Part shown: positions 2,971-33,209 of the stretch, one piece after another | Layout of the letters: each line of letters starts with the position of its first letter | Numbering within the stretch: the first letter of the stretch is position 1 | Assembly: GCF_902726545.1 (NCBI RefSeq) | Contig: NZ_CACVAD010000045.1 | Location: 1 to 36,262, forward strand | DNA from: Yersinia artesiana | GTDB taxonomy: Bacteria; Pseudomonadota; Gammaproteobacteria; Enterobacterales; Enterobacteriaceae | Length of the DNA: 36,262 nt | Reading direction: 5' to 3' | The notes under the pieces: model-generated | The model's database searches: none | Seen by the model: only the letters and a program-made list of their open reading frames with translations | What the model was told of the DNA's origin: nothing | Position numbers and translations under genes: made by a program

Positions 2971-3513
2971 TTAGTCTAAGCGCGGATAGGCATCGGCTAT
3001 CTTATCGCCGGTAAAACGCGCCACCCAACCCTCTGGATTATCAAATACCCGAATAGCGGTAAAATTCGGTTTAGAGCCCATATCAAACCAATGCGGCGTA
3101 TCGGCCGGAACTGACAGCAAGTCATTCTTTTCGCAAAGAATTTGGTAAATTTTATCATTGAGATGCAAGCAAAATAACCCGGTTCCTTCGACGAAGAAAC
3201 GCACTTCATCTTCACCGTGGGTATGTTCTGATAAGAATTTCTCGCGCAATACTTCACGCTGCTCATTATCAGGACGCATACTGATCACATCCCAGCTCTG
3301 ATAGCCCTTTTCCGCTACCAACCGGTCAATTTCATGCTGATATGCTGCAATCACGGCCTCCGGTTGTGGGTTCTCGCCCAGTTCGCGATCCGCCTGCCAG
3401 CGCTCAAATCTTACGCCAATCGCGGTCAATTGCTGTTGAATTTCCTCAGCATCGCAGCTTTGCCACAGCGGCTGTTCTGGCTGCTCATCACTAAAAATGG
3501 TTAATCCGCTCAT
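2971..3513 (-). CDS. mtnD: Acireductone dioxygenase
   Basis: Cupin-fold metal enzyme that oxidises the acireductone made by MtnC. The Fe2+ form gives 2-oxo-4-methylthiobutanoate plus formate on the way to methionine; the Ni2+ form gives an off-pathway product with CO. In this 180-residue protein the metal ligands are visible as His97, His99 and Glu103 in [11 protein letters not shown], and His141 in TPHWFD, the same spacing as in the Klebsiella enzyme. Its start overlaps the mtnC stop by 4 bp (ATGA), so it is the last gene of a translationally coupled mtnB-mtnC-mtnD operon. A palindromic repeat follows the stop codon. Confidence 0.95.
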
Positions 3514-7010: not shown

Positions 7011-8267
7011 TTAACTTAGCGCCCACGACAACACCGTTTCCAGATAAGCCTGAATCCCCATTGCCACATCACTGCAAGTCACTGATTCATCGGGATGATG
7101 ACTGATCCCGCCTTTGCAGCGCACAAATAACATCCCGACCGGCCAACACTCCGCCACTGCAATGGCGTCATGACCTGCGCCGCTGGGCAGCGCTAATGAG
7201 CGCCCCTGCACCCGACTCACACTGGCACTAATGTGTTGCTGCAAATTATCATCACAGCCAGTTGCATTGATATGGTAAAACTCTTGCGCTGCAAAAGTCA
7301 GACCACGGCGCGCCGCTATCACCTCAGCTTGCGCCAATAAATCGGCCAATAACTTGCTGACACTACTGTCCTGCGGGCCTCGAATATCCAGAGTCAGCTT
7401 CACCTCCCCCGCAATCACATTCACCGCACCGGGCAAACAGGTCAGAGCCCCCACCGTCGCCACCAAATGCTCGCCATAACTCTCGGCTAGCCGCTCAACG
7501 GAACACATCCATTCAGCAGCACCGGCTAATGCATCCTGCCGCTGCCCCATTGGCACGGTACCGGCATGACCTGCCAGCCCGGTAAAGTGGCAATTCAGAC
7601 GACGAGCACCATTAATCGCGCTCACCACGCCCAATGCCAAACCGGCCTGTTCCAAACACGGCCCTTGCTCAATATGCAATTCAAGATAGGCACAGAAATC
7701 GCGGGTTGCCCGCTGCGCCTGTGCAACCGCCATCGGATCGAGGCCGACATTCGCCATCGCCTGCGCCACACTGACCCCCTCGGCATCGGTTTTACTCAAC
7801 CAATCTGCGGGCCAACGACCGGTAATCCCTTTACTGCCGAGCAACGTGATGCCAAACCGCGTCCCTTCTTCGTCGGCAAAACCAATCACCTCAATGGCAA
7901 CCGGTAAGCGCCGCTGCTGGCGATGCAAGTACCCCACCACCTCCAGCGCACTTAATACTCCCAACATGCCATCATAACGGCCGGCATTGCGCACTGTATC
8001 AAGATGAGAACCCAGTAATATGGCTGGTGCATCGGATTGCAAACCCTCATAACGGCCACAGATATTTCCGACAGGATCCTGCCAAACCTGCATGCCAACC
8101 GCCCGCATCCATTCCCCCACTTGCTGATTTGCCCGCAAATGCTCAGGAGACAAATACACTCGCGTCAGCATATCGGGGGACTCACTGATTGCCGCCAGCA
8201 CATCACAACGGGCTAATACCCGTAATGCGGCTTGCTCTGCCTCGGCATCAGGCAGGGTAACGGCCAT
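7011..8267 (-). CDS. hpxK: Allantoate amidohydrolase-like M20-family enzyme
   Basis: Binuclear metallohydrolase of the Zn-dependent M20 / allantoate amidohydrolase and N-carbamoyl amino acid hydrolase group. Metal-binding motifs are LGSHLDTV (His88), RYDGMLG (Asp99), ADEEGTRFG (Glu133/134) and LELHIEQGP (His198); SGAGHDAIA and KGGISHHPDES lie near the C-terminus. In the Hpx pathway of Klebsiella the equivalent converts allantoate to ureidoglycine with release of ammonia and CO2. At 418 residues it has normal length. It is the last gene of the six-gene operon, and its ATG overlaps the hpxJ stop (TGATG). Family members cannot be told apart by motifs alone, but the adjacent aminotransferase favours the ureide role. 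Confidence 0.85.
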   Translation of the reverse strand: MAVTLPDAEAEQAALRVLARCDVLAAISESPDMLTRVYLSPEHLRANQQVGEWMRAVGMQVWQDPVGNICGRYEGLQSDAPAILLGSHLDTVRNAGRYDGMLGVLSALEVVGYLHRQQRRLPVAIEVIGFADEEGTRFGITLLGSKGITGRWPADWLSKTDAEGVSVAQAMANVGLDPMAVAQAQRATRDFCAYLELHIEQGPCLEQAGLALGVVSAINGARRLNCHFTGLAGHAGTVPMGQRQDALAGAAEWMCSVERLAESYGEHLVATVGALTCLPGAVNVIAGEVKLTLDIRGPQDSSVSKLLADLLAQAEVIAARRGLTFAAQEFYHINATGCDDNLQQHISASVSRVQGRSLALPSGAGHDAIAVAECWPVGMLFVRCKGGISHHPDESVTCSDVAMGIQAYLETVLSWALS

Positions 8268-9517
8268 CAGTTTTGTTCAACCTGATAGACACCCCACGCC
8301 GCTTGCAGCCCAGCGCCCTGAACAGTGACAAACCCTAACCGGTTCAACACCGCTTCAAGAGCTACCAGTGTTTGCATCACACAATCTTTACGGGCGTTAT
8401 ACCCCATCGTGCCTATACGCCAAATTTTGCCATTCAGCGGCCCAAATGAAGTACCTATCTCAATACCAAAATCATTCAACATCAATTGCCTAACTTGTTC
8501 ACCGTGGATCCCCGCCGGAATGACCACGCCCAACACATTGTTCATGCGATACTTCAGGTCACCGAAAACGGCAAGCCCCATGCCTTGAATCCCCGCCAGC
8601 AATGCAGCGCCGTGCAAGGCATGACGCGCAATGCCGTTATCCAAACCTTCTTCCAGCATCACCCGCGCACATTCTCGGGCGGCGAACAACATGCTGGTCG
8701 CCTCAGTATGATGATTCAGGCGCTCCGGCCCCCAATAATCCATGATCATGCCCAGATCAAAGTAATTGGAATAGATCATCTCTTCATCGCCATCAGCATG
8801 ATCCGCCGTGCGGATCCCCTGCTCAATACATTTGCGACGCCGAATTTGTTCAGCAAATCGTGGACTCAGCGTCACCGGAGAACTGCCCGATGGCCCACCG
8901 AGGCACTTTTGTAGCCCAGCCGAGACTGCATCCAGCCCCCATGCATCTGTTTCCAATACATTTCCACCTAATGATGCCGTGGCGTCGGTATAAAATAGCA
9001 CGTGATGACGGCGGCAAATTTCGCCCAGTTCGACCAGCGGTTGCAACATGGTGGTTGAGGTGTCGCCCTGCACCGTCAACAATAGGCGCGGGCGCACTTT
9101 CTTGATGGCATCCTCAATCATATCCGGTGTGAATACTTCGCCCCACGGCACTTCAATAACATGGACTTCGGCACGGCAACGCCGGGCAATTTCACATAAC
9201 AAATGGCCGAAACGACCAAAAACCGGCACCAGCACTTTATCGCCCGGTCGAATGGATGACAGCAAAACGGCCTCGATACCGGCACGGGAAGTGCCATCAA
9301 TCAACATCGTCCACTGATTTTCAGTACGGAAAACACCACGATACAGCGCCATCACCTGATTCATATAATCCGTCATCGCCGGATCATATTGCCCGATCAA
9401 CTGGCTCGCCATCGCGCGCAGCACCCGTGGATCGGCATTGATCGGCCCCGGCCCCATCAGCAACCGTGCTGGTGGATTAATCTGACTAAACAACGGGTTA
9501 TGGTTAACTGCCGACAT
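8267..9517 (-). CDS. hpxJ: Class V aminotransferase, probable (S)-ureidoglycine-glyoxylate aminotransferase
   Basis: PLP enzyme of the AGT/PucG fold. LLMGPGPINADPRVL at the N-terminus, DGTSRAGIEAVL, the cofactor-binding FYTDATASLGG (Asp178) and the Schiff-base Lys204 in SAGLQKCLGGPSG are seen, plus RIGTMGYNAR near the C-terminus. PucG of Bacillus transaminates ureidoglycine with glyoxylate to oxalurate and glycine, and HpxJ in Klebsiella purine catabolism is assigned the same role. Its partner hpxK overlaps it directly. The 416 residues are about normal for the family. Upstream are the ABC importer genes of the same operon. Serine- or alanine-glyoxylate transaminase is a less likely alternative. 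Confidence 0.85.
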   Translation of the reverse strand: MSAVNHNPLFSQINPPARLLMGPGPINADPRVLRAMASQLIGQYDPAMTDYMNQVMALYRGVFRTENQWTMLIDGTSRAGIEAVLLSSIRPGDKVLVPVFGRFGHLLCEIARRCRAEVHVIEVPWGEVFTPDMIEDAIKKVRPRLLLTVQGDTSTTMLQPLVELGEICRRHHVLFYTDATASLGGNVLETDAWGLDAVSAGLQKCLGGPSGSSPVTLSPRFAEQIRRRKCIEQGIRTADHADGDEEMIYSNYFDLGMIMDYWGPERLNHHTEATSMLFAARECARVMLEEGLDNGIARHALHGAALLAGIQGMGLAVFGDLKYRMNNVLGVVIPAGIHGEQVRQLMLNDFGIEIGTSFGPLNGKIWRIGTMGYNARKDCVMQTLVALEAVLNRLGFVTVQGAGLQAAWGVYQVEQN

Positions 9518-9556
9518 AGAAAATCTCCATTCTTATATGAATCAGTAAAATGTTTC

Positions 9557-10291
9557 CTACAAACCACGCACTGAGGATATAAATTGTTTTAATTCAGCTG
9601 TTTGTGGCTGAGCAAATAACGCACGACTTTCGCCCTGCTCCCACACCCGCCCCTGATGCATAAACACCACGCGGTCACCGACTTCACGCGCAAAATTCAT
9701 CTCATGGGTTACCAGAATCAAGGTCATGCCTTCAGCAGCTAACTGCTCAAGAACTTTTAGCACTTCTCCCACCAGCTCAGGATCCAGCGCAGAGGTAATT
9801 TCATCACACAACAAGACCTTAGGTTGCATCGCCAACGCGCGGGCAATGGCCACTCGTTGCTGCTGGCCGCCAGAAAGATTGGCAGGATAATAATCCATCC
9901 GATCCGCCAGCCCGACTTTGGTCAACATCTCTGCCGCCAGGTCACGACACTCGGCAGCGCTCTTTTTCAAGACTCGGCGCGGTGCCAGCATCACATTCTC
10001 AAGTGCAGTCATATGCGGGAACAAATTGAAGTTCTGAAATACCATCCCCACTGAGCGGCTAATTTCACGCGCTTGCGAATCGCGGTTGGTCACCGTCATC
10101 CCTCCGAGTTTGATACTGCCGTCCTGATAGCCTTCCAGCCCATTCATGCAGCGCAGCAATGTGCTTTTACCTGAACCGCTACGGCCAATGATCGAAATGA
10201 CTTCGCCGATCTCGATATCCAGATCTACCCCTTTCAGCACATGATTCTGGCCATAGTATTTTTGAACCTGATTAATGGTGATCAGCGGCAT
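9557..10291 (-). CDS. Polar amino acid-type ABC transporter, ATP-binding protein
   Basis: ATPase subunit of a GlnQ/HisP-type importer, energising uptake at the inner membrane. Walker A is GRSGSGKS, the signature [16 protein letters not shown], and Walker [15 protein letters not shown] with the switch histidine in LVTHEM. Its 244 residues are typical. The start overlaps the preceding permease gene by 20 bp. It lies between the permeases and hpxJ-hpxK in one minus-strand operon, which suggests that the cargo is a substrate of these enzymes (allantoate or a related ureide) although the sequence family itself points only to polar amino acids. Confidence 0.92.
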
Positions 10292-10925
10292 GGAATTTCT
10301 TCTCCAGATAATGGCTGTAACGCGACAAGGGGTAACACATCAGGAAATAGCCCAGCGCCACTAAGCCAAACACTTTAAATGGCTGATAAGTGACATTGTT
10401 TAACATAGTTCCAGCTTTGGTCAGCTCAACAAAACCGATGATGGATGCCAGCGCCGTCCCTTTGATGACTTGCACTGAAAACCCTACCGTGGGCGCAATC
10501 GCAATACGCATCGCCTGTGGCGCAATCACCCGAAATAAAGTTTGGCTGAAACTCAGGCCCAAACAGCGGGAGGCTTCCCACTGACCTTTCGGTAAAGCAT
10601 CAATACTGCCGCACCAGATATCCACCAGAAAGGCACTGGTGAACAGTGTCAATGCCATCGCCGCGGCCGCCCACGGACTGACATCAATGCCCAACAGTGC
10701 CAATCCGAAGAAAGCCAAAAACAGCTGCATCAATAGCGGTGTGCCCTGAAATAGCTCGGTGTAACCGCGGACAAAACCTGTCATCCAGCGCCAACGGCTC
10801 AAGCGCATCAGCATCAGCGGCAATGTCACCAAAGTCCCGCCGAGAAAGGCGGTCAATGACAGTAACAGCGTCCAGCGAGCTGCCAGCAGCAGGTTGCGGA
10901 TGATATCCCAATCAGTAAACATCAT
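10272..10925 (-). CDS. Polar amino acid-type ABC transporter, permease 2
   Basis: HisM/GlnP-family inner-membrane subunit of 217 residues with several hydrophobic segments (around residues 12-40, 60-80, 85-105 and 185-205). The EAA-type loop that contacts the ATPase is seen as EASRCLGLSFSQTLFRVIAPQAMR. It overlaps the upstream permease by 4 bp (stop TGA within ATGATG) and the ATPase gene by 20 bp. Two ATG codons in a row (10925 and 10922) can serve as start. It pairs with the other permease as a heterodimer, as in HisQM. Confidence 0.9.
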   Translation of the reverse strand: MMFTDWDIIRNLLLAARWTLLLSLTAFLGGTLVTLPLMLMRLSRWRWMTGFVRGYTELFQGTPLLMQLFLAFFGLALLGIDVSPWAAAAMALTLFTSAFLVDIWCGSIDALPKGQWEASRCLGLSFSQTLFRVIAPQAMRIAIAPTVGFSVQVIKGTALASIIGFVELTKAGTMLNNVTYQPFKVFGLVALGYFLMCYPLSRYSHYLEKKFHAADHH

Positions 10926-11605
10926 GAGGCACGGTTCCCAAAGAATCGGCGTCCAGCCGCCAACAACAACTGGCGCATCGCAATAGACAACAACAGGTAC
11001 AGCAATGTGGTCACCAGATAGACCTCAAAACTGAGGAAGGTACGTGACTGAATCAGGTTGGCAGCAAATGTCAGCTCTTCAAATGACACCTGCGATACCA
11101 CCGCAGAACCGAGCATCACAATAATGCATTGGCTGACCAGTGCTGGATAAATGCGCTGCAATGACGGTGGTAAAATCACCCGAAAAAATGTCTGACTGCG
11201 GCTCAAACCCAGCACTCGCCCCGCTTCCCACTGGCCTTTAGCGCTGGCCTGAATCCCGGCGCGGATAATTTCCGTGCTGTAAGCGCCTAAATTTATTGTC
11301 ATCGCCAACACCGCAGCCTGCCCGGCGCTCAATTTCAACCCCAGCGCCGGTAAACCAAAAACGATGAAAAATAGCTGCACCACAAAAGGGGTATTACGCA
11401 CAATTTCCACATAACCGCCCCATACCCGCCGCAAGATGACCTTATCAAGCCGAGGGTCATGACTACAGCGGATCGCCGCGCCGACAATCCCCAGAGCGAT
11501 CCCACCCAAGGTTGCGATAGCTGTCAGCTCAATAGTGATCAACAAACCCGATAACAACTCAGGCAGATAAGGCCACAGAGCAGGAAAGTTCAGCTGATAG
11601 GTCAT
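10922..11605 (-). CDS. Polar amino acid-type ABC transporter, permease 1
   Basis: HisQ/GltJ-family inner-membrane subunit, 227 residues. Hydrophobic segments are visible near the N-terminus (LSGLLITIELTAIATLGGIAL), in the middle and near the C-terminus, and the EAA loop is EAGRVLGLSRSQTFFRVILP. It starts 12 bp after the binding-protein gene and overlaps the next permease gene, so the transporter genes are tightly coupled. Its sequence resembles permease 2 in the coupling loop, consistent with an old duplication that gave a heterodimeric channel. Confidence 0.9.
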   Translation of the reverse strand: MTYQLNFPALWPYLPELLSGLLITIELTAIATLGGIALGIVGAAIRCSHDPRLDKVILRRVWGGYVEIVRNTPFVVQLFFIVFGLPALGLKLSAGQAAVLAMTINLGAYSTEIIRAGIQASAKGQWEAGRVLGLSRSQTFFRVILPPSLQRIYPALVSQCIIVMLGSAVVSQVSFEELTFAANLIQSRTFLSFEVYLVTTLLYLLLSIAMRQLLLAAGRRFFGNRAS

Positions 11606-11617
11606 CGCCCGCTCCTG

Positions 11618-12409
11618 TTATGCGCCGAGATCGGCTGGTAACGGGGCTTTCAGCCATTTTTCGGACAAGCCATTCAGGGTGTTATCTTGCAAAGCTTCAA
11701 CAATCAGCGCATCAACCTTGGCTTTCAGTGCCGGTTCCCCCTGGCGTAAACCGATATAACAGGGTGAATCTTTCAGCATAAATTTTGCCACAGGGGCCTG
11801 AGCGGGATTCTGACGGGCCAGGGCGCTGACCACCAAATTCCCGGTTGCCAGATAATCCACCTGCCCGGACAAATAGGCTGATAACGTGGTGTTGTTATCC
11901 TCATAACGTTTTATTTGGGCATCTTTGGGCGCTAACTCACTCAGCACCATATCTTCTACCGCCCCGCGCGTCACACCGACAGTTTTCCCGGCCAGTTGCT
12001 CTGGCTGTTGCAGCGCATCCTCTTTCGCGCCAAAAACGCCAAGGAAAAACGGCGCATACGCACGACTAAAGGCGATAGCTTTTTCCCGCTCTGGATTTTT
12101 ACCCAAGCTGGAAATCACCAAATCCACTTTATCAGTTTGCAAATAGGGAACGCGGTTAGCGCTGGTCACTGGCACCAGTTGCAACTTTAGTTTCATTTTA
12201 TCGGCCAGATAATGCGCCATATCGATGTCATAGCCTTGCGGCTGAAGATCCGTCCCAACGGAACCAAATGGAGGGAAATCCTGTGGAACAGCTACCCGTA
12301 ACACGCCACGCTGTTGAATCTGCTCTAATTGATCAGCTAATACAGCGGGAACCTGAACCAATATCAGTGCTGCACCCAGTAATGCCAACATCCGCTTTTT
12401 CATGTTCAT
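11618..12409 (-). CDS. Periplasmic solute-binding protein of the ABC transporter (SBP family 3)
   Basis: 263-residue family 3 binding protein with a Sec signal peptide: basic MNMKKRM, hydrophobic LALLGAALILVQVPA, and a probable cleavage after VLA just before DQLEQI. The family pattern follows: GVLRVAVPQDFPPFGSV, GYDIDMAHYLADKM and later ISSLGKNPEREKAIAFSRAYAPF. GGAG lies 8 nt before the ATG. It is the first gene of the operon and is preceded by a sigma-54 promoter, NtrC-like sites and RpiR-like operators. The ligand cannot be read from the sequence; context suggests an anionic ureide such as allantoate or an oxamate/oxalurate-like compound. Confidence 0.9.
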   Translation of the reverse strand: MNMKKRMLALLGAALILVQVPAVLADQLEQIQQRGVLRVAVPQDFPPFGSVGTDLQPQGYDIDMAHYLADKMKLKLQLVPVTSANRVPYLQTDKVDLVISSLGKNPEREKAIAFSRAYAPFFLGVFGAKEDALQQPEQLAGKTVGVTRGAVEDMVLSELAPKDAQIKRYEDNNTTLSAYLSGQVDYLATGNLVVSALARQNPAQAPVAKFMLKDSPCYIGLRQGEPALKAKVDALIVEALQDNTLNGLSEKWLKAPLPADLGA

Positions 12410-12433
12410 AGCTTATCTCCGATAACACAGTAA

Positions 12434-12479
12434 TGAAACAATAGATTCTTAAAATCAAATCACTGAAACCATCGTTGCA
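12434..12479. promoter_or_regulatory. Two 16-bp palindromic candidate operators for the RpiR regulator
   Basis: TGAAACCATCGTTGCA at 12464-12479 matches 14 of 16 positions of the perfect palindrome TGAAACTATCGTTTCA found just upstream of the rpiR-type gene (13588-13603). A second, weaker copy at 12434-12449 matches 12 of 16. They are 30 bp apart, close to three helical turns. The first overlaps the -12 element and the expected transcription start of the sigma-54 promoter and the second lies just downstream, positions that fit a repressor. Binding by this regulator is inferred. Confidence 0.65.
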
Positions 12480-12492
12480 ACTACTGTGCCAA
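12475..12492 (-). promoter_or_regulatory. Sigma-54 (RpoN) promoter of the ABC transporter-hpxJK operon
   Basis: On the minus strand TTGGCACAGTAGTTGCA matches the -24/-12 consensus TTGGCACGN4TTGCW at all but one specified position, with the required GG-N10-GC spacing. The predicted start is near 12465, giving a leader of about 56 nt before the binding-protein ATG at 12409. No competing sigma-70 promoter stood out. Confidence 0.8.
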
Positions 12493-12541
12493 TAAACCAC
12501 CAGGATGGAAATCCCATTATTAGTGGCATCACGCTATGTAG

Positions 12542-12567
12542 GGAATAAATCGGAGGAATAAATCGGA
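12542..12567. repeat. 13-bp tandem duplication in the operon's upstream region
   Basis: GGAATAAATCGGA occurs twice head to tail (12542-12554 and 12555-12567). It lies between the sigma-54 promoter and the NtrC-like sites, so it adds 13 bp, about 1.2 helical turns, to the promoter-enhancer spacing. Confidence 0.75.
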
Positions 12568-12575
12568 GCAAGAGA

Positions 12576-12624
12576 TTCACAAAAAAAGTGCAGAAGGATA
12601 ATTTATTTGCACCATAGAGAGGCA
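12576..12624. promoter_or_regulatory. Two candidate NtrC enhancer sites
   Basis: Compared with the NtrC site TGCACC-N5-GGTGCA, 12608-12624 (TGCACC-N5-GAGGCA) matches 10 of 12 positions and 12576-12592 (TTCACA-N5-AGTGCA) matches 9 of 12. Their centres are 32 bp apart and lie about 119 and 151 bp upstream of the predicted start. This is close to the geometry of the paired enhancer sites at E. coli glnAp2 (-108 and -140). The pairing and position strengthen otherwise moderate matches. Confidence 0.6.
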
Positions 12625-12647
12625 ATCAATCACAAACAATGCTAACT

Positions 12648-12721
12648 GAAAGGGAAGCGTGCCGTTGGGGTCGAAAGCGGCTTACGCCGCCGGAGCGCCC
12701 CTGGGTGCGATAACCCTTTCA
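12648..12721 (+). repeat. Palindromic intergenic repeat, copy 2
   Basis: Second copy of the family at 2866-2938. The outer arms are GAAAGGG (12648-12654) and CCCTTTC (12714-12720), the inner stem GGGG...CCCC, and the central hairpin GCGGC-TTAC-GCCGC. It begins 11 bp past the stop codon of the RpiR-type gene and also lies upstream of the NtrC-like sites of the next operon. Confidence 0.8.
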
Positions 12722-12731
12722 AACACTGAAG

Positions 12732-13571
12732 TTAACGCTGCTCCAGCTCGCCGAAAGCGTCATACAAATCAGCTATTTGATGAATGCGCTGTCGGCCCTG
12801 CGTCAACATTTCATGCAACAATGCATTACTGAGTAAATTCGCCAAACTCATGGCAGAAGAATAGCTATCAAAAGCAGACACACTGTCGAGCGGCGTAGTT
12901 AACCGCCACTGTGCTAATGACAGCAACGACTGGGCTTGCGGCTCACAAATCAACAAGGTAGGCACACCTTGCACCTGCATTTGTAGCAAAATTTCGCGGA
13001 TAACTTTCGGGCGGCGTCGGAATGCCACCACCACCACCACATCACGCGGCCCGGCATCCACTAACTCCTCCGACAATGTTTGCCCTGCTTGCGGGATTAA
13101 CTGGACAGACTGACGAACCTGCAGCAATTGCTGACGCAGATGCAGTGCGACCGGATAGCTATTACGTAACCCCAACAACAAGATACGCGGTGCACGCACC
13201 AAGGCATTGATAATGTCACTAAATTGCTGGCTATCTAACTGATTTACCCAATGAGTCAGGTTTGCCATTTCCTGCTTATAATGGCGCGCCAACAAGGTAT
13301 TCCCTTGCACAGCATCGCGATTATCGGTCAGCGGCATTCCGCTTTGGCGCAAGGTTCGCACCTCTTCCCGCATTTCTCGATAGCTGCTGTAACCCAGCCG
13401 TTTAAACAGGCGGCTAACCGTCGCCTTAGACACGCCACTCAGCCGCGCCAGCTCGGCGCTGTTGTAACTGATCAAATCATCAAAATGACCAAAAATAAAA
13501 TCGGTAACGCGCTGCTCCTGCGGGGTTAATTGCGCATAATGCGCCCGCAAACGCTCATCAATCTGTTTCAT
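12732..13571 (-). CDS. RpiR-family transcriptional regulator
   Basis: 279-residue regulator. Its N-terminal helix-turn-helix spans about residues 1-77 (TPQEQRVTDFIFGHFDDL, then SAELARLSGVSKATVSRLFK). The C-terminal SIS sugar/phospho-metabolite-binding domain covers about 110-260 and includes RILLLGLRNSYPVA. GGAGAAGG lies just ahead of the ATG at 13571. It sits between the transporter-hpxJK operon and divergent hpxWXYZ. A perfect 16-bp palindrome lies 17 bp upstream of its start, and related palindromes overlap the transporter promoter, so it probably controls itself and the transporter operon. The effector is unknown; a pathway intermediate is likely. Confidence 0.9.
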   Translation of the reverse strand: MKQIDERLRAHYAQLTPQEQRVTDFIFGHFDDLISYNSAELARLSGVSKATVSRLFKRLGYSSYREMREEVRTLRQSGMPLTDNRDAVQGNTLLARHYKQEMANLTHWVNQLDSQQFSDIINALVRAPRILLLGLRNSYPVALHLRQQLLQVRQSVQLIPQAGQTLSEELVDAGPRDVVVVVAFRRRPKVIREILLQMQVQGVPTLLICEPQAQSLLSLAQWRLTTPLDSVSAFDSYSSAMSLANLLSNALLHEMLTQGRQRIHQIADLYDAFGELEQR

Positions 13572-13587
13572 ACCCTTCTCCGGCCAA

Positions 13588-13603
13588 TGAAACTATCGTT
13601 TCA
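13588..13603. promoter_or_regulatory. Perfect palindrome upstream of the RpiR gene (candidate operator)
   Basis: TGAAACTATCGTTTCA is a perfect inverted repeat of 6-bp arms with a 4-bp spacer, 17 bp upstream of the regulator's start codon. Related copies lie at the ABC transporter promoter. A different palindrome (GAGAAT-TTTC-ATTCTC, 13653-13668) lies between it and the hpxW promoter and may be a further site. Confidence 0.65.
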
Positions 13604-13686
13604 GCATAGGCATTTTTGCGGAACATAGCACACAAGCTCTCACCGCTAATATGAGAATTTTCATTCTCCGCATAAAATTCGACATT

Positions 13687-13703
13687 CTGGAACGCCTCTT
13701 GCT
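13687..13703 (+). promoter_or_regulatory. Sigma-54 promoter of the hpxWXYZ operon
   Basis: CTGGAACGCCTCTTGCT fits the -24/-12 consensus YTGGCACGN4TTGCW with one change in the -24 box and the exact GG-N10-GC spacing. The predicted start is near 13714, 46 nt before the hpxW ATG at 13760. I found no convincing NtrC pair in the short upstream region, so an enhancer may lie farther away or within the regulator gene. Confidence 0.7.
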
Positions 13704-13759
13704 TAGCTTCTGCCACCTCAGTTTTCTATTTCAATAAACGGGTGATAAGGAAAGCAGCA

Positions 13760-15346
13760 ATGATCAACAGCAACATGGCACCGCAAGGAATGGCGGTTAC
13801 CCCACATCATTTAGCCAGTGAAAGTGCCCTCGCTGTATTACGTGAAGGCGGCAACGCAATTGAAGCCATGGTCGCAGCAGCGGCCACCATAGCGGTGGTT
13901 TATCCACATATGAATGGATTGGGTGGCGATGGTTTCTGGCTGATTGTCCCGCCCAATGGCGATCCGATTGCCATCGATGCCAGTGGAGCCGCAGGTGAGC
14001 TGGCGACGCTTGAGCGCTACAGCGCATATCAACAGATCCCGCACCGTGGGCCGCAAGCCGCATTGACGGTTGCCGGAACTGTCGGCGGCTGGGAAGAAGC
14101 GCTGAATGTTGCTCGCGAACTCGGTGAAAATACCCTGCCACTGCGCCGCTTACTGGCAGATGCGATTACCTACGCCACACGCGGTATTCCGGTCACCCCT
14201 TCCCAAGAGGCGGCCACCCGAGCTAAATCCCATGAGCTGGCTAAATTCACCGATTTTACCGACGTTTTTATGCCACAAGGCAATATTCCAGCAGCGGGCG
14301 AACGCTTTGTTCAGCCGCAATTGGGCCAAACGCTGACAGCGCTGGCAGAACAAGGGCTAAGTAGTTTTTATCGCGGCCCGCTGGCCGAAAAAATCATCCT
14401 TGATATTACCGCCGCAGAAATGCCGATTACCGCCCAAGATCTGGCGCAATATCGGCCTAAACGCCGTACACCTCTGCGGCTACGCCACCAGCAAGGTGAA
14501 GTCTTCAACCTGACGCCACCGACGCAAGGTTTGGTATCACTGGCGATTCTCGGATTGGCTGACCGCAAACCGGTCGCCCAAATGAGTGAAGGTCAAACCA
14601 TTCACACCCTCGTGGAAGCAACCAAACTCGCCTTTGGGCTGCGTGATCAGGTGATTACCGATCCGCTGTGGATGGAGCATTGTCCACAATCCCTACTGGA
14701 AAAAGAGCCGCTCGACCAATTGGCGGCTTACATCAATAGCGAGCAAGCCGCCCATTGGGGCAGTGGTCGCGGGCCGGGTGATACCGTCTGGATGGGGGTG
14801 ATCGACAACAATGGGCTGGCGGTTTCCTTTATTCAGAGCATTTATCATGAATTTGGCAGTGGGGTGTTACTGCCCGCGACGGGCATTATTTGGCAAAACC
14901 GTGGCGCATCTTTCAGTCTTGACCCCAAGCATCTGCTAGCGTTAGCGCCGGGAAAACAGCCATTTCACACCTTAAACCCTGCCGCCGCCCGCCTGACGGA
15001 TGGCCGAACTCTGGTGTATGGCGCGATGGGCGGAGATGGTCAGCCACAAACTCAGGCGGCGGTATTTGTCCGCCACATTGTGCAGGGCTTGCCCTTACAG
15101 CAAGCCATCACCGCACCACGCTGGCTATTGGGCCGCACCTGGGGGGAAAGCTCTGACTCACTGAAACTGGAAGCACGTTTCGGGGCCGAAACCCTTGATT
15201 ACCTGCGCCAACGCGGGCATCAGATTGAATTGCTACCCGATTTTAGCGAGGTTGTCGGCCATGCCGGAGCTATTGTTCGCCACCGTAATGGCATGTTAGA
15301 AGGCGCATTTGACCCACGCAGTAATGGCAGCGCCGCCGGTTATTGA
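13760..15346 (+). CDS. hpxW: Oxamate amidohydrolase proenzyme (gamma-glutamyltransferase-like Ntn hydrolase)
   Basis: Self-processing N-terminal-nucleophile hydrolase of the gamma-glutamyltranspeptidase family. HpxW of Klebsiella hydrolyses oxamate to oxalate and ammonia. The processing-site nucleophile is probably Thr342 in GPGDTVWMGVID, close to Thr344 of the Klebsiella enzyme. GAMGGDGQPQTQAAVF near the C-terminus matches the family's oxyanion/ligand loop. No signal peptide is seen, so unlike periplasmic GGTs it should be cytosolic. I start at the ATG at 13760, with AAGGA 8 nt upstream, rather than at an in-frame GTG at 13742; this gives 528 residues. It is the first gene of the hpxWXYZ operon behind a sigma-54 promoter. 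Confidence 0.88.
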   Translation: MINSNMAPQGMAVTPHHLASESALAVLREGGNAIEAMVAAAATIAVVYPHMNGLGGDGFWLIVPPNGDPIAIDASGAAGELATLERYSAYQQIPHRGPQAALTVAGTVGGWEEALNVARELGENTLPLRRLLADAITYATRGIPVTPSQEAATRAKSHELAKFTDFTDVFMPQGNIPAAGERFVQPQLGQTLTALAEQGLSSFYRGPLAEKIILDITAAEMPITAQDLAQYRPKRRTPLRLRHQQGEVFNLTPPTQGLVSLAILGLADRKPVAQMSEGQTIHTLVEATKLAFGLRDQVITDPLWMEHCPQSLLEKEPLDQLAAYINSEQAAHWGSGRGPGDTVWMGVIDNNGLAVSFIQSIYHEFGSGVLLPATGIIWQNRGASFSLDPKHLLALAPGKQPFHTLNPAAARLTDGRTLVYGAMGGDGQPQTQAAVFVRHIVQGLPLQQAITAPRWLLGRTWGESSDSLKLEARFGAETLDYLRQRGHQIELLPDFSEVVGHAGAIVRHRNGMLEGAFDPRSNGSAAGY

Positions 15347-15384
15347 TTTCATCCACAATTTACTTATTCAGCACAGGAATTGTC

Positions 15385-15585
15385 ATGAAAGAAACATCAG
15401 AAAAAAATGCTATGGATTGGACTGCTTATATTCGGCAAATGGAAATCTTATTAGCCTTAGAGTTGGATGACACCCGCCGTGCGGCATTGCTACAACAATT
15501 TGAACGCATTGCGACTATGGCTGGCCCCTTGATGGCGCTGCCTCTGGATGAAAAGCAAGAGATAGCCGGGGTATACCGGTTATGA
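15385..15585 (+). CDS. hpxX: Small AtzG/GatC-like subunit (DUF4089)
   Basis: 66-residue protein, mostly helical in appearance, with WTAYIRQMEILLALELDDTRRAALLQQFERI and then PLMALPLDEKQEIA. This is the DUF4089/AtzG pattern. AtzG is a reduced GatC relative that binds and stabilises the amidase AtzE. The ATG at 15385 has AGGA 6 nt upstream; the longer in-frame extension to 15343 overlaps the hpxW stop and has no ribosome site. Its stop overlaps the hpxY start (TTATGA), as expected for a subunit made together with its partner. Predicted to form a complex with HpxY. Confidence 0.85.
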   Translation: MKETSEKNAMDWTAYIRQMEILLALELDDTRRAALLQQFERIATMAGPLMALPLDEKQEIAGVYRL

Positions 15586-16979
15586 AACAGATTTCAACTC
15601 TGACTATCACCGAGATTCAGCAAGCGCTCAATCAGGGTGAATTATCCGCACAAGAAATAGCCTTAAACACGTTGGATACCATCAACGCGGCCAATCCCGC
15701 GATCAATGCTTATACCCATATCACCGCAGACCGGATGCTCAGTGAAGCATATCGGCTGGATACCTTACGCGCCAAAGGACAAGCTCTGCCCGCATTGGCA
15801 GCCATTCCCTATGCGGTAAAAAATCTGTTCGATGTGGCAGGCGAAACCACGCTTGCCGGGGCCAGTTTGTTTTGTGAACGCGCGCCAGCCAGACAAGATG
15901 CGCCGGTTATTTCACGCCTCGCTCAGCAAGGGGCCATGCTGTCCGGCATGCTGAATATGGATGCTTACGCCTATGGTTTTACCACTGAAAACAGCCATTA
16001 CGGTGCCACGCGTAATCCGCGCGATATTAACCGTATTGCCGGTGGCTCCTCCGGTGGATCGGCGGCAGCGGTTGCTGCGGGGCTGGTTAATTTCGCGCTT
16101 GGCAGCGATACCAACGGCTCTATTCGGGTTCCGGCTTCGCTGTGCGGTATTTTCGGGCTGAAACCAACCTTTGGCCGATTATCACGCCGCGGCACTCATC
16201 CATTTGTCGCCAGTTTGGACAGTATCGGCCCGATGACGCGCTGCACGCAAGATTTGGCCGCCGTCTATGATGTGATGCAAGGAACTGATATTCAAGATAG
16301 TTTTCAATCGGATAAACCTGTCTCACCCTGTCTGAATTTACTATCGCGTGGTCAGCAAGGCTTGCGAAGTGCCATTCTGGGTGGGTATTTCCAGCAATGG
16401 TGTGACGATGATGCCAAAGCTGCGGTACAGCTCGTCGCCAAAGGGCTGGAAGCAGTCACCGAAGTCGAGATGCCACAGAGTGATTTGGCCCGCACAGCCG
16501 CATTTATCATCAGTGCTGCCGAAGGCGGAAATCAGTATCTCCCTGCCCTAAGAAAATCGCCACAACGTTTTGAACCGCACTCACGGGAGCGGCTGTTAGC
16601 CGGAGCCATGCTACCAGCAAGTTGGTATATTCAGGCCCAACGTTTCCGCCACCATTTCCGTCAACAAATCCTACCGTTATTTGAACATTGGGATATTTTG
16701 ATTGCGCCCGCAACACCTTGCAGCGCCACACTTATTGGTCAGGAGATGATGCGAATCAATGACACCGATCTTCCCATTCGCGCCAGTATGGGGATGCTAA
16801 CCCAGCCTATTTCGTTCCTCGGCCTGCCAGTGGTCACCGTGCCATTGAGAACGGCTGGTGGCCTGCCAATCGGGGTGCAACTCATTGCCGCACCGTGGCG
16901 CGAAGACCTCTGTTTACGTGCCGCTTATGCATTAGAACAACAAGGATTAGTGAGCGCACCGGTCAGTAGCGTGATTTAG
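15582..16979 (+). CDS. hpxY: AtzE-type amidase
   Basis: 465-residue amidase-signature hydrolase. The Ser-cisSer-Lys triad is visible: Lys80 ([10 protein letters not shown]), Ser156 ([10 protein letters not shown]) and nucleophile Ser180 ([11 protein letters not shown]), with the same spacing as in other family members. It resembles AtzE, which removes a terminal amide nitrogen from 1-carboxybiuret, and GatA. In this operon its likely substrate is a carbamoyl compound such as oxalurate. That assignment is my inference, since published work on hpxWXYZ, as far as I recall, demonstrates only HpxW activity. It overlaps hpxX by 4 bp, indicating equal production with the small subunit. Confidence 0.87.
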
Positions 16980-17006
16980 GAAGCACCTTTCGATGAGAGC
17001 AATAAA

Positions 17007-17393
17007 ATGAAAAATGAATTTATCGATCGCCCAGCGATCCTTGCCCAGGTGAATGAAGCATTTTACCGCTATGAACAGGCGTTGATTAGCAACGATATTC
17101 CGGTATTGGATGAATTGTTTTGGCATGATAGCCGCACTGTGCGCTTTGGTGCGGGAGAGGATCTGTTTGGCATTGATGCCATCAGAGCGTTTCGTCAGAG
17201 CCGACCATCAAAAGGTTTGGATCGTACTTTAGAGAATACGGTGATCACCACTTTTGGTGAGGACATGGCGGTCGCCAGTACCGAATTCTACCGTGAAGGC
17301 ACTGCACGAGTCGGCCGACAGATGCAGACATGGGTTAAGCTGCCCTGCGGCTGGCGGATTGTGGCAGCGCATGTGAGTTTGATTTCGGAGTAA
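17007..17393 (+). CDS. hpxZ: HpxZ/AtzH-family SnoaL-like protein (DUF3225)
   Basis: 128-residue single-domain protein of the NTF2/SnoaL-like cone fold, with RPAILAQVNEAFYRYEQALI, LDELFWHDSRTVRFG, LFGIDAIRAFR and a C-terminal WVKLPCGWRIVAAHVSLI. It resembles AtzH, reported in Pseudomonas sp. ADP as a decarboxylating amidohydrolase of the cyanuric acid route. By analogy it may act on an N-carboxylated product of HpxXY; this is not shown for HpxZ. It is the last gene of hpxWXYZ, 27 bp after hpxY, with only a weak ribosome site (GAGAGC). The hairpin-rich element begins within a few bases of its stop. Confidence 0.85.
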   Translation: MKNEFIDRPAILAQVNEAFYRYEQALISNDIPVLDELFWHDSRTVRFGAGEDLFGIDAIRAFRQSRPSKGLDRTLENTVITTFGEDMAVASTEFYREGTARVGRQMQTWVKLPCGWRIVAAHVSLISE

Positions 17394-27013: not shown

Positions 27014-27233
27014 TGTCTTCTCCACCAACGCGCAGGGCGCGAAGATTACCTGATGTCTGCTCGGTTAGCCATAAGCAAGCGCTAAAAGCTAGCAACTATC
27101 GTATTCATCGAATAAACCATTTTGGCAATGACTTCATTTATACCCATAATAGATAACAACAACGAAACAATTCAGCTCATATTGACTGTCTGGTTTCTCT
27201 TAATCTACTCAGATACAAAATAAAGGCTAATTT

Positions 27234-27674
27234 ATGAATACGGTATGTACAGCTTGTATGGCGACGAATCGCCTACCTGAAGCACGTATTGATGACGGCG
27301 CTAAATGTGGGCGCTGCGGCCACTCTTTATTTGATGGCAGCGTCATTAACGCCACCGCCGAAACACTGGATAAACTGCTACAAGATGACCTGCCGGTCGT
27401 CATCGACTTCTGGGCTCCTTGGTGCGGCCCTTGCCGCAGCTTCGCTCCGATTTTTACAGAGGTTGCCGCAGAGCGCGCCGGAAAAGTTCGCTTTGTTAAA
27501 GTCAATACTGAAGCAGAACCGGCACTCAGCACGCGTTTCCGTATCCGCAGCATTCCTACCATTATGCTGTATCGAAACGGCAAAATGGTCGATATGCTTA
27601 GCGGTGCATTGCCAAAGGCAGCTTTTGATAATTGGTTAAATGAACAATTATCAGTGGAACCCACGGCTCGCTAA
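27234..27674 (+). CDS. trxC: Thioredoxin 2
   Basis: Cytosolic zinc-containing thioredoxin that reduces protein disulfides. The 146-residue protein has the N-terminal zinc motif with Cys5, Cys8, Cys25 and Cys28 (VCTACM...[12 protein letters not shown]) and the active site WCGPC with Cys64 and Cys67, the same numbering as E. coli Trx2. AAAGG lies 8 nt before the ATG. E. coli trxC is OxyR-controlled, but I could not recognise a convincing OxyR site here. A strong terminator follows. Confidence 0.95.
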
Positions 27675-27768: not shown

Positions 27769-27827
27769 TATGGTATGACTAAGCATCAGGGTTGATTAGA
27801 ATAGCGCTATTTCTTCAGGAGTCCGTC

Positions 27828-28577
27828 GTGACTGAATCATCGACTACCGACCAGGCTTTGCCTACGGTCATAACGACGGGAAATGCAGTATTGCGGTTAC
27901 GCCAGCAGCGGTTATCCGCCTCTACCCGCCCGTATCGCGCCCGTGGTTGCCGAGCTATTCGCTGCCAAGGCTGCCTGCTGACTGAGCGTTTTTGTTTGTG
28001 TGACACCATCAAACCACAACCGGCCAGCAGCCGCTTTTGCCTGATCATGTTTGATACCGAACCCCTTAAGCCCAGTAATACCGGCCGCCTGATTGCTGAT
28101 ATTCTGCCAAACACTCAAGCCTTCCTCTGGGCGCGAACAGAAGTTGCTCCTGAGCTGTTAGCCGCAATACGCGACCCTTCTCGCCAGCCTTATGTGGTCT
28201 TTCCAGAAAAATATGCCGACCCTGACCGGCAGGTACTCAATCAATTACCTGTAAGCGATAAACCACCGTTATTTATTTTACTGGATGGTACCTGGACTGA
28301 AGCTAAAAAAATGTTCCGCCGAAGCCCGTATCTTTCCGAACTCCCCGTGCTATCGCTGAATGTCAGCAATGCATCGGATTACCAGCTACGCGAAGCACAA
28401 CGCCCGGAACAGCATTGCACTGTCGAGGTTGCCGCCGCCCTACTGCAACAAGCCGGTGATATTCAGGCAGCGGATGGATTAACCGCACATTTTCATTATT
28501 TCCGTCAGCAATATTTAGCCGGAAAACCTCATCATCCAGTGGGCCGAGTCACAGCAAGTATCGAAGATATCGCATAA
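27828..28577 (+). CDS. tapT: tRNA-uridine aminocarboxypropyltransferase (DTW-domain protein YfiP/TapT)
   Basis: DTW-domain enzyme that transfers the aminocarboxypropyl group of S-adenosylmethionine to a tRNA uridine (acp3U at position 47 in E. coli). A cysteine cluster CRAIRCQGCLLTERFCLC suggests zinc binding. The core motifs are MFDTEPLKPSNTGRLIADIL, the DTW motif as LLDGTWTEAKKMF, and YQLREAQRPEQHCTVE. The GTG at 27828 has AGGAG 6 nt upstream and gives 249 residues; the alternative upstream start at 27792 lacks such a site. The N-terminus is about 17 residues longer than in E. coli. patZ follows 52 bp downstream. Confidence 0.9.
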   Translation: MTESSTTDQALPTVITTGNAVLRLRQQRLSASTRPYRARGCRAIRCQGCLLTERFCLCDTIKPQPASSRFCLIMFDTEPLKPSNTGRLIADILPNTQAFLWARTEVAPELLAAIRDPSRQPYVVFPEKYADPDRQVLNQLPVSDKPPLFILLDGTWTEAKKMFRRSPYLSELPVLSLNVSNASDYQLREAQRPEQHCTVEVAAALLQQAGDIQAADGLTAHFHYFRQQYLAGKPHHPVGRVTASIEDIA

Positions 28578-32867: not shown

Positions 32868-33209
32868 ATGTGGTGCTCACCTTATCTTCGTCCTTTAATT
32901 ATTGCCCCGCTACTTGTTGCCAGTGCTGCATGTACTCATACAGCCAATGACAGTTGGACGGGGAAAGATAAAGCACAACATTTCTTTGCCTCTGCCGCAC
33001 TTGCTGCGGCGGGTACAGCCTATGGCGAACATCAAAATTGGTCAGATGCAAGAAGCCGCAATTTCGGCCTGTTATTTTCGATAGGTATCGGCGCGGGCAA
33101 GGAGCTATATGATAGCCGCCAAGGTGGTACTGGCTGGAGTTGGAAAGACTTTGCCTGGGATGTCGCCGGCGCAGTGACTGGCTATAGCCTCTATCAGGCA
33201 GTTAACTGA
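32868..33209 (+). CDS. yfiM: YfiM family putative lipoprotein (DUF2279)
   Basis: 113-residue exported protein. The N-terminus is a signal peptide ([15 protein letters not shown]) with a cysteine at residue 22 that could be acylated, although the residue three before it (Ser) is not the usual Leu. The conserved part is [40 protein letters not shown] and [18 protein letters not shown], the YfiM pattern. GGGAG lies about 8 nt before the ATG. It follows pssA as in E. coli. The function is unknown. Confidence 0.88.

Follow-up and report, generated by a model that had tools for sequence, protein, structure and literature searches.

The locus at positions 7011-17393 of a 36,262-nt stretch of Yersinia artesiana DNA (contig NZ_CACVAD010000045.1, hereafter the window) is best explained, and we believe probably correctly so, as a nitrogen-scavenging allantoate cluster of the Klebsiella hpx type in which oxalurate is processed by an amidase route without carbamoyl phosphate. 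The HpxFGHI importer would bring allantoate into the cell, HpxK would convert it to ureidoglycine, ammonia, and CO2, and HpxJ would transaminate ureidoglycine to oxalurate, the last two steps as in known homologues. HpxXY would then cut oxalurate, presumably at its terminal carboxamide, to give ammonia and N-carboxyoxamate. The latter would decay spontaneously to oxamate and CO2, a decay that HpxZ may accelerate, and HpxW, like its known homologues, would hydrolyze oxamate to oxalate and ammonia. The route would at no point yield carbamoyl phosphate, and both operons would be controlled by two sigma-54 promoters together with an RpiR-type repressor. Sequence analysis establishes the identities of the genes, where the amidase sits in the cluster across bacteria, that AllG and two types of allantoinase are absent, and promoter-like sites. 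The conversion of oxalurate to oxamate is the step lacking an assignment in hpx-type purine breakdown; our results point to two specific amidases, with HpxZ predicted to be helpful and dispensable. More broadly, the balance of evidence leans toward a bacterial route that takes oxalurate to oxamate with no carbamoyltransferase, through either of two separately evolved amidases (the two-subunit HpxXY or a single-chain PRK08310-type enzyme, here amidase II) with an optional AtzH-like decarboxylase, and whose core of allantoinase, HpxK, HpxJ, and HpxXY is kept in symbiont-sized genomes of 0.48 Mb. If this is true, such genomes would need neither allantoicase nor oxamic transcarbamylase to free nitrogen from the ureides of a host, and symbiont-sized genomes could recycle ureide nitrogen unseen by surveys of allantoicase and urease (compare PMC7218078).

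That an amidase, not a carbamoyltransferase, handles the step between HpxJ and HpxW is well supported by context, because patterns of both gene retention and gene displacement place an amidase there. Displacement is seen outside the window's family (f1, taken as Enterobacteriaceae and sampled with 198 genomes), where nine of nine clusters uniting HpxK, HpxJ, and HpxW carry amidase II beside HpxW and have no HpxXY. Amidase II occurs anywhere in 2 of the 32 other HpxW stretches outside the family, an association whose p value of 6e-7 assumes independent loci, which these in fact are not. The nine amidase II sequences group together (100/92) and apart from HpxY in the tree, and residues K80, S156, and S180 (HpxY numbering), which we take to be catalytic as in the amidase family at large, are present in 47 of 47 aligned amidases. 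Genome G425 carries HpxZ, amidase II, a TRAP importer, and HpxW in a single run without HpxJ or HpxK. Locus L139, in which an AtzH-like gene, amidase II, a TRAP importer, and an HpxW-like gene form a compact run at 7990-14357, is perhaps an uptake operon for oxalurate or oxamate.

Retention is seen in small genomes. HpxJ occurs in seven genomes of at most 1.2 Mb (G042, G529, G562, G599, G625, G628, and G665), and at least eight other listed genomes of this size are without it. All seven keep HpxK, HpxJ, HpxX, and HpxY, while HpxW is present in five and HpxZ in two. AllG and the missing HpxZ were sought across whole genomes, with AllG in none of the seven; the importer and the regulator, also in none, and HpxW were scored in fetched stretches of about 17-19 kb. 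In the two 0.48 Mb genomes (G529 and G665; L166 and L167), the stretch holds PuuE, HpxK, HpxJ, HpxX, and HpxY, and no HpxW, HpxZ, importer, or regulator. Their HpxX, very divergent (30% identity in G529, no Pfam match), was named by its place and by its end. HpxY is under weaker constraint than HpxK or HpxJ in this pair (ratios of nonsynonymous to synonymous substitution rates, dN/dS, of 0.26, 0.13, and 0.07, respectively), and its dN/dS is 0.06 in the pair G530/G666. Because the six small-genome HpxY sequences in the tree form one group (99/98), their retention may reflect one history, not several.

The same pattern extends to larger genomes. G530 and G666 lack HpxZ and, in the stretch, HpxW, and keep HpxXY; G615 and Yersinia frederiksenii (L021) lack HpxW and likewise keep HpxXY. 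In Y. frederiksenii ATCC 33641, the gap left by HpxW lies between the regulator and HpxX, and HpxXYZ stay. G526 and G582 have HpxK and HpxJ with none of HpxW, HpxX, HpxY, or HpxZ in the stretch, and AllG is present in both. Since HpxJ stands without HpxK in nine further stretches, among them that of G564, which ends at a contig edge, HpxJ may have other uses. These nine stretches (L173-L178 and L181-L183, one of them cut by its contig) are also without HpxWXYZ. Twenty HpxJ genomes are without a full HpxZ, and the stretches of 18 of these were analyzed, leaving out G663 and G662 (broken HpxZ, truncated HpxJ). Gene presence was read from tblastn tables, as the scripted lists of open reading frames (ORFs) favor long frames and, where loci are GC-rich, miss genes that are shadowed.

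The apparent freedom from carbamoyltransferase, proposed in an earlier note made from the window's letters alone, agrees with a search of the whole window genome (G000), in which AllG (PF06545) had no match and the E. coli positive control matched; AllF, AllH, and YgeW-type enzymes were not searched for. Within the family sample, HpxZ scores above cut-off in 56 of 198 genomes, all of which also have HpxJ (fragmentary HpxZ in G536 and G662 is left out of the count). The presence of AllG shows no dependence on that of HpxZ (p = 1), and therefore the two routes are not mutually exclusive; an anticorrelation between them was accordingly dropped as an argument. Nor was adjacency found between AllG and HpxJ, which in AllG-bearing HpxJ genomes without HpxZ never lie within 100 kb on one contig.

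Some observations bear on alternatives to the scheme. AllG is present in 13 of the 56 HpxZ genomes, and YgeW-type enzymes lay outside the search, so that an unrecognized carbamoyltransferase elsewhere might turn oxalurate into oxamate and leave HpxXYZ to serve another ureide or side products. This is nevertheless very unlikely, given that 43 of the 56 HpxZ genomes and all seven small HpxJ genomes are without AllG and that an amidase fills the slot in all nine outside clusters examined. The six stretches that hold HpxXY without HpxW (G529, G665, G530, G666, G615, and L021) would suit a cleavage of oxalurate by HpxXY to oxalate and urea, with HpxW needless for this flux. Such a reaction is nonetheless highly improbable: HpxW hydrolyzes oxamate (Hicks and Ealick 2016, as cited in PMC5270733) and is present in the locus of 76 of 80 relatives (the top 80 among 297 loci from named genomes that a search with HpxZ yielded, gene presence being judged by our own thresholds), and AtzE, the nearest characterized enzyme, deaminates 1-carboxybiuret (PMC6219798).

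Other observations speak against a simple role for HpxZ. In L031 (Sodalis sp.), L039 (an Enterobacterales metagenome-assembled genome), and L059 (labelled Martelella alba), loci that appear to be of one Sodalis type, HpxZ is kept and HpxX and HpxY are absent. HpxZ of this type is under strong purifying selection (two comparisons gave dN/dS of about 0.05 at dS of 1.3-1.9), and no AllG was found in the three genomes. Most or all of the importer is lost from these loci as well. Remote amidases from L204-L206 were considered as replacements for HpxXY; the best copies are 26-33% identical to one another, are not close to amidase II, and stand in other contexts, and no claim is made for them.

An alternative that bears on HpxZ directly holds that the amidase acts on oxalurate and HpxZ does another job, for example on carbamate from HpxK, or that HpxXY frees carbamate directly without N-carboxyoxamate. 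We consider this unlikely, if clearly the most serious of the alternatives. Of 23 AtzH-like loci above cut-off outside the family, 21 were examined (G350 and G395 were left out), and an amidase lies within 2 kb in 16 of these (12 AtzE-type, 4 other); an AtzE-type amidase lies about 3 kb away in one, four have none, and none has HpxK in the stretch. Further, the nine residues of the AtzH pocket listed in PMC6219798 (Tyr22, Arg46, Arg63, Arg66, Arg73, Phe94, Arg96, Gln106, and Gln108) are all kept in the window's HpxZ, where the two glutamines fall at positions 105 and 107. The pocket is unchanged in all 11 HpxZ rows of alignment A1 and in most of the AtzH-like proteins checked, although the small-genome HpxZ of L171 (G599) deviates at one residue, the other exceptions being L130, L140, L145, L146, L147, and L148.

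In the favored reading, an amidase acts on oxalurate with HpxZ as an accessory. HpxZ is not obligatory, because it is missing from five of the seven small genomes and from eight of the nine outside clusters that retain the amidase. The earlier note had proposed that HpxYX deaminates oxalurate and that HpxZ then decarboxylates the product. The place it gave the amidase, between HpxJ and HpxW, is upheld by the retention and displacement patterns; against its two-enzyme scheme as written stand these absences and the three loci with HpxZ and without HpxXY.

Eleven genes were called in the locus from ORFs, profile families, and similarity to solved chains. Four lie on the forward strand. HpxW (13742-15346), an oxamate amidohydrolase of the gamma-glutamyltransferase fold, matches both chains of 5HFT (421 and 337 bits); these split at 347/348, making T348 the probable nucleophile, and translation may in fact begin from an ATG at 13760. 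HpxX (15412-15585, 57 amino acids) is a small AtzG/GatC-like subunit (NF033624, 103.5 bits against a cut-off of 70; PF13318), and HpxY (15582-16979), the candidate oxalurate amidohydrolase, is an AtzE-type amidase (NF006631, 787 bits; TIGR02715; AtzE 6C62, 494 bits). HpxZ (17007-17393), the candidate N-carboxyoxamate decarboxylase, is an AtzH-like NTF2 protein (NF033625, 210 bits against a cut-off of 135; PF11533) that matches 2RCD with 195 bits and AtzH 6BJT with 124 bits and is 98% identical to HpxZ of Yersinia proxima. Thus, hpxXYZ follow the order AtzG-like, AtzE-type, AtzH-like (PF13318, TIGR02715, PF11533).

The reverse strand carries the remaining seven. HpxK (7011-8267) is an allantoate amidohydrolase of the M20 family (NCBIfam NF006773, 752 bits against a cut-off of 584), and HpxJ (8267-9517) is the ureidoglycine aminotransferase that makes oxalurate (790 bits to 3NNK, a ureidoglycine-glyoxylate aminotransferase). 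The ATP-binding cassette (ABC) importer consists of the ATPase HpxI (9557-10291; top model GlnQ, 316 bits, below its cut-off of 379), the permeases HpxH (10272-10925) and HpxG (10922-11605), both above cut-off for TIGR01726, and the family 3 periplasmic binding protein HpxF (11618-12409; PF00497). Next comes an RpiR/SIS regulator (12732-13571; PF01418 and PF01380), the counterpart of HpxU, a name taken from the title of Guzman 2013. The earlier note's union of an importer, HpxK-like and HpxJ-like enzymes, and hpxWXYZ in one locus is borne out by these families and solved chains, with the addition of the regulator that it omitted. All eleven genes occur together in 63 of the 80 relatives, and because of this the arrangement is far beyond chance.

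As to entry, no close relative of HpxF has a solved structure (102 bits at best), and the ligand of the importer is not assignable by homology. PuuE and a gene of the Asp/Glu/hydantoin racemase family lie near HpxZ in 54 of the 80 relatives, 52 of which also have an NCS1 permease. The whole importer is present in 44 of the 54 PuuE loci, and an importer without PuuE is found in 21 loci. In light of these co-occurrence counts, the importer probably carries allantoate, with HpxF binding it. Importer and allantoinase are not strict alternatives, a notion ruled out by the 44 of 80 loci that hold both. In the window genome the search for allantoinases covered two types, with no match for PuuE and none above cut-off for AllB.

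Regulation is suggested by predicted sigma-54 promoters of hpxFGHIJK (12476-12491, reverse strand, TGGCACN5TTGCA) and of hpxWXYZ (13688-13703, forward strand, TGGAACN5TTGCT). These are the two matches to a strict pattern in the 36 kb, right before hpxF and hpxW, where 0.16 are expected; two matches arose in 4 of 100 shuffles. Strict sites, the window included, precede hpxF in 65 of 67 upstream regions and hpxW in 71 of 76, against 0 and 1, respectively, in a single shuffle of each. The strict sigma-54 and repeat patterns were picked after viewing the alignment of the region between the regulator and hpxW, and the hpxF site thus serves as the independent test. A looser sigma-54 pattern was set aside, as only one of its four window matches falls at a promoter here. 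An exact inverted repeat, TGAAAC-N4-GTTTCA (13588-13603, forward strand), is the probable RpiR operator; a near repeat occurs in 74 of 78 upstream regions on the regulator side and 72 of 76 on the HpxW side, the window included. A weak, imperfect RpiR-type repeat (12464-12479, forward strand, one mismatch to TGAAACN4GTTTCA) overlaps the hpxF promoter, and just 7 of 67 loci have the repeat pattern ahead of hpxF.

The other proteins scanned in the window include no purine or ureide enzyme (ORFs overlapping named genes were scanned in part), and the earlier note's statement that the window lacks allantoinase, xanthine dehydrogenase, and oxamate carbamoyltransferase holds. Their families comprise methionine-salvage enzymes, a CN hydrolase, a major facilitator superfamily permease, AzlC/YgaH, MprA-EmrAB, an outer-membrane efflux subunit, a tRNA/rRNA methyltransferase, TrxC, an acyl-CoA ligase-like protein, phosphatidylserine synthase, an Exo_endo_phos protein, and DkgB. 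The family scan gave no match for the ORFs at 2971-3513, 27227-27664, 27792-28577, and 32868-33209.

The locus is a known cluster type and, as a locus, ordinary. The title of Guzman 2013 names the allantoate cluster of K. pneumoniae and an RpiR-type repressor, HpxU. The hpxFGHIJK-hpxU-hpxWXYZ cluster of Klebsiella pneumoniae/oxytoca holds the same kinds of gene as the window and the same type of regulator, and its layout, with hpxK, hpxJ, and the importer genes divergent from hpxWXYZ and the regulator in between, is that of the window; it differs in that PuuE and an above-cut-off AllB are lacking from the window genome. This layout is in part what we take the Klebsiella order to be. The other part comes from PMC6219798, where the arrangement had been printed for Serratia, Klebsiella, Yersinia, and others as a ggt-like gene, atzG-E-H, a divergent ABC transporter, a transaminase, and an allantoate amidohydrolase. 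This ggt-atzG-atzE-atzH cluster of Enterobacteriaceae (Esquirol 2018, PMC6219798) is the same locus as ours, described there with a LysR-family regulator, where the window's is RpiR-type, and with no step assigned in this setting. In K. oxytoca, hpxWXYZ is induced under nitrogen starvation, and NtrC and sigma-54 have been suggested (PMC8381380). As for function, HpxX and HpxZ are entered in NCBIfam as oxalurate catabolism proteins, and HpxY is an oxalurate amidohydrolase in one passage of PMC12625717 and an oxamate carbamoyltransferase in a figure legend. The open-licence listings and passages searched contained no assay with either HpxXY or HpxZ, nor did they put forward an N-carboxyoxamate scheme. 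E. coli AllFGH, the oxamic transcarbamylase, carries out the same net conversion of oxalurate to oxamate; unlike the proposed route, it yields carbamoyl phosphate, and its AllG is absent from the window genome. Its genes were assigned only in 2024 and are said to be absent in K. pneumoniae (PMC11326118). A parallel in chemistry is AtzG-AtzE-AtzH of Pseudomonas sp. ADP, which acts on 1-carboxybiuret from an operon shared with atzD and atzF, neither of which is among the scanned window proteins, and in which a homologous small subunit, amidase, and NTF2 protein perform a deamination followed by a decarboxylation (PMC6219798).

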